64,000 nucleotides of DNA. It comes from Treponema sp. J25. Its GTDB lineage: Bacteria; Spirochaetota; Spirochaetia; Treponematales; Breznakiellaceae. The stretch is taken from positions 124,001 through 188,000 of the forward strand of contig NZ_PTQW01000003.1 in assembly GCF_004343725.1 (NCBI RefSeq), given 5' to 3'. Under the pieces are notes generated by a model, which saw nothing but the letters and a program-made list of their open reading frames with translations, did no database searches and was not told the DNA's origin. Positions 2,548 to 44,144 of this stretch are shown piece by piece. A program made the translations under genes and the position numbers. Within the stretch, counting starts at the first letter, position 1. Each line of letters begins with the position of its first letter.

Positions 2548-3264
2548 ATGAAACGAAGTATAGTTCTAATATCTTTAATAGTAGTGGCCGGTTTCCTCTT
2601 TTCTCAAGAATTGGGAACCCCCAATCCAGAAAAGGTAGGAATTGAAAGTGCCCAGCAAAAATTAAAGGAAGTTTCGGTTGATAAATTTGAACAGGATGGC
2701 TTCTGGGTCCCTTACATGTCCAGCGATGACGGCTTTGTAACGGTGCGCCTCTTTGAAGGGAACCCCGCCGGGAAAGTGCCGCTGGAAGAAGAAAAGAACC
2801 TCAATATCCCTGATAAATATGTCCTTGGTGTGCGGGTTGATTTTTTGCGGCGGGCCTATTCCCATTTCTATATACGTCCTTTACGGCCTATTCCTATCGA
2901 AGGAATCACCAAAACGATTTCGGTATGGGTGGTTGGACGGAATTATAACCATGTGCTCAAAGTGGTATTGCAGGATTTCTTTGGTCGGGAATATGAACTC
3001 TACATGGGTCGCCTTAATTTCCAGGGGTGGAAAAAGCTGACTGTGGCTATTCCCCCTCAGTCTCCTGATGGGAAGAGTGGAATTGTCCAGAGGGATTATC
3101 ACTATAATAGTAAAATGGGCCTCAAGATTATTGGGTTTAAGGTTGAATGCGATCCCATGGAAGCCTACGGGAGCTATTATATCTACTTTGATGATCTGCG
3201 GGCAGTGACGGATCTCTTTGCAGAAGAAAATCGGGATCCCGACGATATGGTTGATACCTGGTAA
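2548..3264 (+). CDS. Second FlaA-family flagellar sheath protein
   Basis: A 238-residue secreted paralogue of the preceding gene. The start at ATG 2548 gives a clean signal peptide (MKRSIVLISLIVVAGFLFSQ) and is preceded by AAGGAG; an upstream in-frame start overlapping the previous gene is unlikely. Shared family features are the SVWVVGRNYNHVLKVVLQD and GRLNFQGWKKLTVAIP segments and the acidic C-terminal tail after the FDDLRAVTDLF segment. It is presumably exported to the periplasm and assembled on the filament sheath with its neighbour. The transcription unit ends at a strong terminator 36 nt downstream. Confidence 0.85.
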   Translation: MKRSIVLISLIVVAGFLFSQELGTPNPEKVGIESAQQKLKEVSVDKFEQDGFWVPYMSSDDGFVTVRLFEGNPAGKVPLEEEKNLNIPDKYVLGVRVDFLRRAYSHFYIRPLRPIPIEGITKTISVWVVGRNYNHVLKVVLQDFFGREYELYMGRLNFQGWKKLTVAIPPQSPDGKSGIVQRDYHYNSKMGLKIIGFKVECDPMEAYGSYYIYFDDLRAVTDLFAEENRDPDDMVDTW

Positions 3265-3299
3265 AAAGCGGTTTGGCACCAACTATCGTTTCTTTGTAG

Positions 3300-40057: not shown

Positions 40058-41893
40058 TTATTGAGCTTCGGGGGAACTTGTTTCCAGAACCTGACGGTCG
40101 ATCCGGGTGATTTTCCATCGGTCTTTTAAGTAGGTAAGAAAGACCCGATCCTGGCGGCGTACCCAGGAAGTTTCAAGCCTGGTGGGGGGAAGGGGAGTGG
40201 AATGGAGGTTGAACTGCCCCGCAGGTTCCTCTTTGGAAGAGGATGGTCCGCCCTCTAAAGGAGCGCTATCTTCCCGTCGTTCCGGATACCAGAAACGGTA
40301 GCTAACCCGTCCTACCGCCTCATTTCCCTCCACCTGAAGTTCATCGATGGAAAAATCCGAAATTCCAAACACATGGAATTCCCCCTGCGGTTTTCCCCGC
40401 TCCATCCAAACTTCCGGAGGAAGAACGAGGACCTTCTGTTCATAGGCTTCTCGTACCTTGGAAATGACGTAGAAATTCATCACCGCCGTAATATCCTCTT
40501 TCCCTGTCTTCCCTTCCACACATGTGGACATCCGTTCGTGGTCCAGGGTGTTAAAGGCGGTGTAATAGGCGGTAAGCACCTCGGCGGGGCTCATCCCTTT
40601 TGTGGTGGGACGCTGGGCCTGATCCCGTATAAAGCTAGCAATGAAAAGAGCCAGGGCAACAAGAGAAAGGGCCCCTCCTATGAGGAGTCCCCGATTCCTT
40701 CGAAGGAAACGGTTCCCTTTAATCCGTTGCTGCTGGAACCGAAGGTACCGCTCTTTTTCTTTGCGCAGGGTCTCCTGTTCTTTTTCGGTAAGAGGCTTGA
40801 TGAAAGCCGCCGGTTCGTGGTGGTGTGACTTTTCGAGTATTTCAAGAAGCGCTTCAAGGGAAGGGGCCCTATCACGCTCCTGCCCGGGAAGAGCTTTTTT
40901 CACAGGTAGTTCTTCTCTTTCGCTGCCACCGTTGGGAGAGGGAGTAGGCCCTGGCGCTGTTCCCAGCCTTTCTTTTATATCTCTGAGGGGGGTATTTGGG
41001 GCCTTTTTTCCTCCGGGGCTCCTGGCTATTGCAGAGTGGGTCAGGGCTCCCTCTATCCACTGGGCCAGGTCCCCATCGATTCCGGGAACCGCCAGGTGTA
41101 TCGGTTCAAAAAGACCATCCCGAATATCGGCCCGAATCTGGTGTATAGCGTGATCGATCTGGGGAGCGGTCCATTCTGAGAGAGCCATCCCGGGGGCGGC
41201 CCCTTCTGTCGTTTGAGTGGGGTGTTGGAGCGTTTCTTTTTGTTTCCCCCTGGATTTTTCGGGTATCGCCATAAAGCGGAATGGAAAGGTCCCTGCCCAC
41301 AGACGGTAGGCAAGGACCGCGACGGTAAAGGATAGCCCCGTACGGTCGGGGAGATCGGGGTGCTGGTACTGTTCAAGGATCTCTTCTGGCCTTCTGTCGT
41401 GTACGCCAGAGCGAAGGCTTCGCTCTCCTAAAGCCCGGGGAGGAAAGAAAACCTTCTCTCCCGGTACTACCAGCACCAGGGGAGGTAGGATGGTCATGTC
41501 TTTTATACGATCGGGACAGAGAGCTTCAATATGACGGAGGGCCCGAACATATGAAACAAAAGCGGCCAGGGCTGTTTTGCCTCCCTGGGCGATATATTCT
41601 TCAAGGGGAAGCCCCGGCACCTCCCGCCCCCAGATCCACAGGTGGCCATCGATTTCTCGGCTCCCTTCGGGAAGCCAGGGATGCATTTCTCCAGGGGAAA
41701 ACGAGGGGGCAGTTATTCCTTCTTTCCCAGAAGTGAGGAGTCCCTGTTTTCCTGTCCAGCGAATTTCCAGACCCTGTTGGGTAAGGAGTTCCGCCCCCCG
41801 GGTCTTTGCGAAGGCCCGGGGATCCATCCCTGTATCAAAAGCTACTGCCGGCTGTCCATCAATGATGATATGTTCGATACAGGAACGATGCAT
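40058..41893 (-). CDS. Large membrane protein with degenerate kinase-like domain and NTF2-like C-terminus
   Basis: 611 residues. Residues about 90-230 resemble a eukaryotic-type kinase C-lobe only in its skeleton: RTGLSFTVAVLAYRLWAGTF looks like kinase helix F (where LGVLLYELLTGxxPF is usual), but no Gly-rich loop, HRD or DFG is present. A linker rich in Pro and charged residues follows, then a single membrane helix near 398-420 (GLLIGGALSLVALALFIASFI). The outer part (about 430-611) begins with AEVLTAYYTAFNTLDHERM, resembling NTF2/SnoaL-like folds. GGGAGG precedes the ATG. It is the third gene of the hflKC operon, starting 2 nt after hflC. The domain assignments are inference. Confidence 0.6.
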   Translation of the reverse strand: MHRSCIEHIIIDGQPAVAFDTGMDPRAFAKTRGAELLTQQGLEIRWTGKQGLLTSGKEGITAPSFSPGEMHPWLPEGSREIDGHLWIWGREVPGLPLEEYIAQGGKTALAAFVSYVRALRHIEALCPDRIKDMTILPPLVLVVPGEKVFFPPRALGERSLRSGVHDRRPEEILEQYQHPDLPDRTGLSFTVAVLAYRLWAGTFPFRFMAIPEKSRGKQKETLQHPTQTTEGAAPGMALSEWTAPQIDHAIHQIRADIRDGLFEPIHLAVPGIDGDLAQWIEGALTHSAIARSPGGKKAPNTPLRDIKERLGTAPGPTPSPNGGSEREELPVKKALPGQERDRAPSLEALLEILEKSHHHEPAAFIKPLTEKEQETLRKEKERYLRFQQQRIKGNRFLRRNRGLLIGGALSLVALALFIASFIRDQAQRPTTKGMSPAEVLTAYYTAFNTLDHERMSTCVEGKTGKEDITAVMNFYVISKVREAYEQKVLVLPPEVWMERGKPQGEFHVFGISDFSIDELQVEGNEAVGRVSYRFWYPERREDSAPLEGGPSSSKEEPAGQFNLHSTPLPPTRLETSWVRRQDRVFLTYLKDRWKITRIDRQVLETSSPEAQ

Positions 41894-41895
41894 GG

Positions 41896-42882
41896 CTACC
41901 TCCCTCGGGGTGAATATAGATATTTAAAGTAATCCATGTCGGTGGAAAGGGTTTTACTGAATTGGGGCATGGTGGTTTTGTAAGATTCAATACTGCGCCA
42001 GAAGTCGAAGAATTCCGGATCTCGACTGTAGGCCTGGGCATAAATGCGGGTGGCCTCCGCATCGGCTTCGCCCTTAATCTTTTCCGCCTTTTCATAGGCC
42101 GCCGAAAGGATAGCCCGGCGCTCGTTTTCGAGTTTCCCCTGCCATTCGGCCTTTTTCCCTTCTCCGTAGGACCGGAAGGCCTGGGCTATCTGATTTCGCT
42201 CCTTAATCATCCGGTTATACACGCTCTGGGTAAGCTCATCGGAATATTTAATCTGGCGGGGCACCACATCGATAAGTTCGATGCCGTATTCGGGCACGGT
42301 TTGGCGGGCCCGCTGAAGGATCTCTTCTGCCAGTTTGCGGCGACCCTTCTGGACTACCTCATAGGTAACATCGCTTCGGGTAAAGGCGGAAAGTTGTCCC
42401 GCGTCCTGTTCCGAACCGAGTTCAAAATTTTCTATTTCCTCTGCTTTGCTCTGGCGGATCCGGTTAGAATTCCGCACCGTTTCTCGAAGCCAGTTTTCGG
42501 CTATAACCGTGCGAACCGCCGAATCGATGATATCGTCCAGACGGGAGTAGGCCGCTTCCATGGTCTGGATAGATTCATAAAATTTACGGGGGTCCGCAAT
42601 TTTCCAGCGCGCCGTCGTATCAACCCAGATGAACTGGTTTTCCTTGGTAGGGATCCGCTGGGGTTCCCCATCCCAGGCCATGATGCGTCGAGGGTACTTT
42701 ACCACGTCGTCGAGGAAGGGGGTTTTTATATGAAGCCCCGCATTGGTATGCACCGCTACGATCTTTCCTAATTGGACGACGACCGCCTGCTCTCCTTCCT
42801 CGATTGTATAGAAGGGACCTGCCAAGAGAAAGGCGATTCCTAACACTACTATTATGATGAGGGTAGTTATCAATGATCTCAT
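41896..42882 (-). CDS. hflC: HflC, SPFH-domain modulator of FtsH
   Basis: 328-residue membrane protein: N-terminal helix (LITTLIIIVVLGIAFLLAGPF), then the SPFH/band-7 domain (YTIEEGEQAVVVQLGKIV, DAHT-like strands) and a long Ala/Glu-rich helix (GKKAEWQGKLENERRAILSAAYEKAEKIKGEADAEATRIYAQA in part) and the C-terminal FFDFWRSIESYK segment typical of HflC. It forms a large complex with HflK around FtsH. The start overlaps the end of hflK by 4 nt (ATGA). Confidence 0.9.
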   Translation of the reverse strand: MRSLITTLIIIVVLGIAFLLAGPFYTIEEGEQAVVVQLGKIVAVHTNAGLHIKTPFLDDVVKYPRRIMAWDGEPQRIPTKENQFIWVDTTARWKIADPRKFYESIQTMEAAYSRLDDIIDSAVRTVIAENWLRETVRNSNRIRQSKAEEIENFELGSEQDAGQLSAFTRSDVTYEVVQKGRRKLAEEILQRARQTVPEYGIELIDVVPRQIKYSDELTQSVYNRMIKERNQIAQAFRSYGEGKKAEWQGKLENERRAILSAAYEKAEKIKGEADAEATRIYAQAYSRDPEFFDFWRSIESYKTTMPQFSKTLSTDMDYFKYLYSPRGR

Positions 42883-43852
42883 TGGACGCCTCCGCGGGTA
42901 TCAAGATTTTTTAAGGGGAGGAAATTCTGAAAGCGGCGATCAATAAGGGTGGTGCCTTTATCATCTTTAAAGATATTTTCTACCATTTCGTAATAGAGCC
43001 GCCGACGGGTAATATCCGGGGCTTTTCGGTACTCTTCGTAGACCGCGTTAAAACGGGCCACATCCCCCCGGGCCATATTTACCCGTTCAGAGGCATACCC
43101 CTGGGCTATCTGGATGATTTTGTCCGCCTCTCCCTGGGCTTTGGGAATTTCCGCGTTATAGGCTTCTTTCCCTTCATTGATAAGGCGGTTCATGTCCTGG
43201 ATAGCCTTGTTCACATCTTCAAAGGCGGCCTGAACCCCCTGGGGGGCACGATATTCTGAAGTTTTACGGTGATCACCGAAATGCCTAGGCCGTACTGCTT
43301 AAAGGTGTCATTCATGAGCTGAATTGCCTCTGATTCAATTTCCGTTCTTTGGGGCCCCATCACATCAAGAATGGCCCGATCTCCCACGAGCATGTTCATA
43401 ACTGACCGGGATACGTCCCGAATTGTAGTGGTCCGCTCTTTAGGGTTTACATTGAAGAGCCACGCCCGGGGATCTACAATACGATACTGGATGATCCATT
43501 CCACATCGACGATGTTAAGATCTCCGGTCAACATGGTGGATTCATCGGGAAAGGCTTCCTGGGAATACACGGTGTTCACCCCTGCTTTGAGGGTTCTGAA
43601 TCCAAACTGTTCGGTTTGAACTACCTTTGTTTTTACTAGGTAATGTTTGTCAATTCCAAAGGGAAGTTTATAATGCATCCCTGGCCCATTGGTGGTAAGG
43701 TACTTACCAAAGCGGGTTACCACCGCTTCTTCGGTCTGGTCCACGATGTAAAAACTGGTGCTCATCAGTACTATCACTACAATAATACCAATGGCCAGGA
43801 TGATGGACGTAGGCCCCAGGAATCTTTTGATGTTTCCTGTGCTATAGGACAT
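42879..43852 (-). pseudogene. hflK: hflK, interrupted by a -1 nt frameshift in a C6 run
   Basis: HflK is the SPFH partner of HflC. The first open frame (43852-43211, 213 residues) has the membrane helix, DQTEEAVVTRFGKYL and the SPFH core, and then reads LQNIVPPRGFRPPLKM before a TGA. The second frame (GTG 43214 to 42879) continues the family sequence with VQAAFEDVNKAIQDMN, visible when read from the junction. Adding one C to the six-C run (43241-43246 on the plus strand as G6) joins them into one full-length protein. Both halves are otherwise undamaged. A sequencing error, a recent mutation, or ribosomal slippage are all possible; GTGA coupling could also give two polypeptides. AAAGGAGG precedes ATG 43852. 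Confidence 0.85.
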
Positions 43853-44144
43853 GCTGGAATCCTCCTTTCTGTGACTTTAGTTTATGATAAACACAGCGAA
43901 GTGTGTTTGTATTTTGCCTTAAAAGGGTGGAGGAAACAACTATTCTCCCTCGTTTCTTCGCCACCAATCCCATTACTCAGAAAAGGGATGCCCAGGAAAT
44001 TTTACGCACCCGCCTACCTTTACAAGGTATCCCTTTCAATGCTTGTCGTCAAGGAAGAGGAACTTAAAAAAGTTACCGGTGTCTTACCTAATCCTCTCTC
44101 CCAGCGGCGATGGGGATTGGGAAATCTTTTCTCCCTTTGAACTC
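43853..44144. other. Intergenic region upstream of hflK (divergent from rpoZ)
   Basis: No gene is supported here. Near the hflK start there is a palindrome GTTTATGATAAAC (43880-43892) partly overlapping a 7-bp hairpin AAACACA/TGTGTTT with a 6-nt loop (43889-43908). The two would be mutually exclusive in the hflK leader. The rest shows no recognisable structure; a plus-strand open frame across it is mostly a shadow of hflK. Confidence 0.4.

Follow-up and report, generated by a model that had tools for sequence, protein, structure and literature searches.

A lone frame break in hflK of Treponema sp. J25 points to a sequence error or a recent mutation rather than a switch

As assembled, hflK of Treponema sp. 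J25 is an otherwise normal gene that appears to have suffered a lone net loss of one base within a short C6-A-G5 stretch. The available evidence points to an ordinary frame break, due either to a sequence error or to an isolated mutation of recent date, and not to a switch. The likeliest single cause, with a probability of just under one-half (about 0.48), would be an error in the consensus or assembly of the 66-contig draft, and living cells would then carry an intact hflK; the presence of the base in the cell is what we infer on this reading. The odds of such an error seem a little better than those of a recent null mutation, and neither of these two leading readings would need a switch or a recoding device.

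The hflK locus and its neighbours

The window, which is the whole stretch of 64,000 nucleotides that was analysed (G000:C3:124001-188000), belongs to a genome of 3.18 Mb that is 99.88% complete, is spread over 66 contigs and is the sole representative of its genus among the genomes searched. Here hflK runs on the minus strand from 43852 to 42879 in two frames one base apart, starting at the ATG at 43852 and ending at a native TGA (42881-42879) that overlaps the hflC ATG. The N piece (43211..43852, minus; 213 aa) covers the membrane segment together with the greater part of the SPFH domain and ends in TGA, its last 7-9 residues being out of frame. The C piece (42879..43214, minus) has 111 aa when counted from an internal GTG. 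The N piece matches the NCBIfam model TIGR01933 (hflK) at positions 1-149 of 261 (E 1.7e-47, 162 bits, cut-off 159.4) and also Band_7 at positions 2-152 of 176, and the C piece matches TIGR01933 at positions 159-261 of 261 (E 3e-32; 112.1 bits, which alone is below the cut-off). Because the two pieces match consecutive parts of TIGR01933, they represent a single gene and not a chance arrangement. Further, a 7-state coding HMM that was trained on the J25 genome itself and had no information on the gene placed the change of frame at 43242/43246. The first-pass annotation had read two halves of HflK in adjacent frames at this place, and both the model matches and the HMM change point bear this out.

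The frame changes by one base in C6-A-G5 (43235..43246, minus), which is composed of C6 at 43246-43241 (G6 on the plus strand), an A and G5 at 43239-43235. The first-pass annotation had put the missing base in the run of six C. The net loss of one base from a C/G-rich stretch stands; its placement in the C run does not, since the lost base could lie anywhere in C6-A-G5 and the sequence alone cannot assign it to the C run over the G run. Compared with HflK as a family (TIGR01933; SPFH/Band 7 partner of HflC and FtsH), the J25 gene is alike in its consecutive model parts with a match above the cut-off, in having hflC directly downstream and FtsH in the genome, and in sharing the gene order of the related genome G026, but it differs in lying in two frames in the assembly instead of a single open frame.

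The adjacent hflC (41896..42882, minus) is intact, with 328 aa and a TIGR01932 match at E 4.7e-99. As read from the sequence, GGAGG motifs at 43861..43865 (minus), 5' of the hflK ATG, and at 42889..42893 (minus) are the likely ribosome sites of hflK and hflC, respectively; with its own likely site, hflC would start independently of translation of the hflK C piece. Both of the two FtsH genes in the genome are intact. The N piece is 82% identical to that of Gracilinema caldarium bin74, and G026, a single-contig genome, shows 84% identity and synteny across 33-58 kb of the window. A scan for promoters upstream added nothing, and the 18-base stretch adjoining the break site had no match in viral contigs. 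Directly downstream, three bases past hflC, starts an ORF of 611 aa (window 40058-41893, minus) with one predicted-looking hydrophobic segment; Pfam and NCBIfam searches with it gave no match at E 0.001.

Conservation, selection and assembly cleanliness

The site is read in one frame at all 109 related loci (L008-L116). Motif searching found 105 of these, which are 94 when only those distinct by DNA are counted, and tblastn found the other four, in which the two sides of the site share a frame. In 11 of the 94 distinct relatives, all of them intact, the site has a C or G run of at least six, and the runs in the closest relatives (L008, L037, L039) are shorter than six. The tract is a by-product of encoding Val-Pro-Pro rather than a conserved element.

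Both hflK and hflC score above their cut-offs in the same 42 of 58 genomes (own included) and below them in the same 16, all within the window's own family; eight of the 16 pair-less genomes are at least 90% complete. The pair is thus kept or lost together. Consequently, an hflC standing beside a dead hflK would be unusual, and a real null would nevertheless be viable, as the loss is tolerated in 16 relatives. A search of the other 41 pair-bearing genomes for an hflK frame break found none. Split-looking hflK genes in G046 and G035 were set aside, being due to contig ends and N runs, respectively, and the hflK match in G024 starts at the contig start. In the draft genome G028, an isolated frame break was seen close to the 3' end of hflC (L029, G028:C88, around 3263-3275).

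Selection on the C half is informative about the age of the break. Against the four nearest relatives, dN is 0.03-0.06 and dS is 1.3-1.9, with synonymous sites near saturation, so that dN/dS is about 0.02-0.05. When the dN of the C half is divided by that of the N half, the quotient ranks 31 of 94; the 93 relatives used are those of the 105 motif-found loci that remained after 12 had been removed (one for containing N, eleven as duplicated or short), and the four tblastn loci were left out. The C half is as strongly constrained as in relatives, and neither relaxed selection nor further lesions past the break, the marks of a decaying pseudogene, were seen. With no sign of disuse in the C half, the break would be either very young or an error absent from the cell.

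The cleanliness of the assembly was assessed in several ways. Alignment of the open frames from a 260 kb portion of G026 covered 60 genes (59.8 kb) in our sample of J25, of which hflK alone lay in two frames. The HMM listed 49 close frame changes over 304 kb, among which only hflK was recognised as a split gene; nine pairs were inspected by eye as translations, and the rest were judged from the listing of starts and ribosome sites. Another 356.8 kb gave 34 changes, and among the six that had no ribosome-like start and were read, one was a split gene. The neighbours at the listed frame changes include what we take to be ftsQ/ftsA, hslV/hslU, fliI/fliJ, purA/guaA and leuC/leuD, among others. The HMM recovered 125 of 150 simulated single-base losses, so some breaks may be missed. 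The split gene of the second set is a chemotaxis receptor (L153, G000:C8, near 17272) whose break does not lie at a homopolymer, and its pieces match 4HB_MCP_1 at model positions 2-71 and 81-179.

The 12-mer CCCCCCAGGGGG that spans the hflK site recurs at L127:4832 within an unbroken frame of 663 codons. Self-complementary stretches of the C5+/G5+ kind number nine, the hflK one included, in a sample of 660.8 kb (about 21% of the genome, with 4 kb counted twice). The intact second copy and the location of other such stretches in long open frames indicate that there is no systematic error at sites of this type. A general homopolymer-error signature was rejected, as only one break was found among the 60 G026-aligned genes. 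The small number of breaks argues against wholesale homopolymer errors and leaves a single consensus error neither proven nor excluded.

Weighing the explanations

The possibility of an assembly error, already allowed for by the first-pass annotation, is still very much alive. In its favour are the single frame at every one of the related loci, the constraint on the C half, the intact hflC and the joint retention of the pair. The C6-A-G5 stretch is G/C-rich and nearly self-complementary, and consensus errors are plausible in stretches of this nature. The isolated break in one of the other 41 pair-bearing genomes, in hflC of the G028 draft, is also counted for it. In the GeneTack survey, homologue-confirmed singletons are expected to be sequencing errors and not genuine indels (PMC3711429), and hflK is like the singleton frameshifted genes described there (recent indel or sequencing error) in having a lone break in a conserved gene with intact homologues and no decay. 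Against a consensus error stand the otherwise clean assembly, the 12-mer left intact elsewhere and the tolerance of pair loss in relatives. A real loss-of-function mutation, recently arisen in the sequenced strain and leaving HflK truncated and FtsH intact, is a strong contender that falls somewhat short of even odds. It is favoured by the scarcity of other breaks in the sample, by the dispensability of the pair in the family (half of the genomes below the cut-off being largely complete) and by the two intact FtsH genes. In Escherichia coli, HflK and HflC alternate and about 110 C-terminal residues form the 'hat' of their assembly (PMC12048511); without these residues, a truncated HflK that still had its membrane segment and the bulk of its SPFH domain should not allow the FtsH cage to form normally. 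The C half, however, shows no decay, and a frame break in hflK occurs in none of the other 41 pair-bearing genomes. If real, the mutation would make J25 a natural example of truncated HflK beside intact HflC, which none of those 41 shows.

Phase variation, recoding and coupled synthesis are improbable even when taken jointly. Slipped-strand mispairing in C6 (or in C6-A-G5) that toggles HflK on and off is very unlikely, although the break does sit in a homopolymer-rich stretch and long poly-G tracts are present elsewhere in the J25 genome. For G/C tracts, a cut-off of 7 or more is in use and switching has been shown at 8 or more, as in work on Campylobacter (PMC6321876); both C6 and G5 are under this cut-off. 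The hflK break is like the poly-G/C phase-variable genes of that source in having a homopolymer within the coding frame, but its run is 6 and not 7+, is unconserved and has no known length variants, and hflK is a housekeeping gene and not of the surface-antigen type. Retention of the tract in related genes, as might mark a phase-variable gene, was not found, given the shorter run of the nearest relatives and the few intact relatives with a run of six or more. Moreover, the 660.8 kb sample contains 474 C or G runs of at least six, and a second gene carries the identical 12-mer without a break. The proposal that a homopolymer switches the HflK-HflC-FtsH complex therefore finds no support. More generally, where a draft genome shows a single broken frame in a conserved gene, a short and unconserved run is no ground for inferring phase variation. 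Recoding, in which ribosome (-1) or RNA polymerase slippage on C6-A-G5 yields some full-length HflK, has even less to recommend it. A single tRNA could re-pair one base back on CCC or GGG, and the C half is strongly constrained. The frames rejoin in translation only with a -1 shift, however, while tRNA-Pro slips +1 on CCC-C, which is the wrong direction. The codons at the site offer no heptamer that allows both tRNAs to re-pair, and the RNA of 121 bases is not unusually stable (fold z 0.53), so that neither the slippery heptamer nor the stimulator of a programmed -1 frameshift is found at the junction; relatives require no shift. The first-pass annotation was right that the TGA of the first frame (43213-43211) overlaps a GTG of the second (43214-43212) as GTGA (43211..43214, minus), and such overlaps can permit reinitiation. 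Its suggestion that two functional pieces are made, the second from this GTG, is the most remote of the readings. The overlap is a by-product of conserved codons, TGA/GTG being the Asp-Val pair of a conserved ..F[ED]DVN.. motif, and the GTG is a conserved Val codon that is likewise GTG in 31 of 94 distinct intact relatives (in 27 of these after GAT, as in J25). No Shine-Dalgarno-like site is present in the 16 bases 5' of the GTG, no conserved start is found at the overlap, the C piece would be without a membrane segment, and no relative has a split of this kind. Coupled synthesis is thus unsupported. It is also highly unlikely that the break is real and is tolerated because enough full-length HflK arises, either by slippage on C6-A-G5 or by tract reversion in some of the cells, with slippage thereby tuning the FtsH-HflKC cage. 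A consensus error, or failing that a recent null mutation, is the reading that we prefer.

Promoter-like poly-G spacers elsewhere in the genome

If phase variation is to be sought in these spirochaetes, poly-G promoter-like spacers near small peptide genes are more promising candidates than hflK. G tracts of at least 10 occur at six places in the J25 genome, the longest G run listed being G18 at G000:C53:27517-27534. Four of the six places (C37, C41 and two on C12) have a TTGACA, a G tract and a -10-like box in succession. G13 lies between TTGACA and the -10 box at G000:C41:2675-2712 (L168, spacer 21), at G000:C37:4928-4959 (L192, spacer 20) and, in the related genome, at G026:C1:296431-296462 (L182, spacer 20). 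In all three cases, the promoter faces a small secreted-looking ORF with a start resembling MKK..IASLLVL..GA.MVMAE and is divergent from a C39-family peptidase gene. These G13 tracts are candidate phase-variable promoters of a peptide cassette common to two genera.

Among the 58 genomes, own included, the pattern TTGAC-polyG(9+)-TANNNT was detected in 10 and its reversed control in none; the genes downstream of it were considered at L168, L192, L183 and L182. On C12 (L183), two TTGACA-G10-(-10-like) arrangements lie 1.7 kb apart, at G000:C12:126324-126357 and 127993-128026, and a nearby ORF of 73 aa has a weak match, below the cut-off, to a class IIc bacteriocin leader family.
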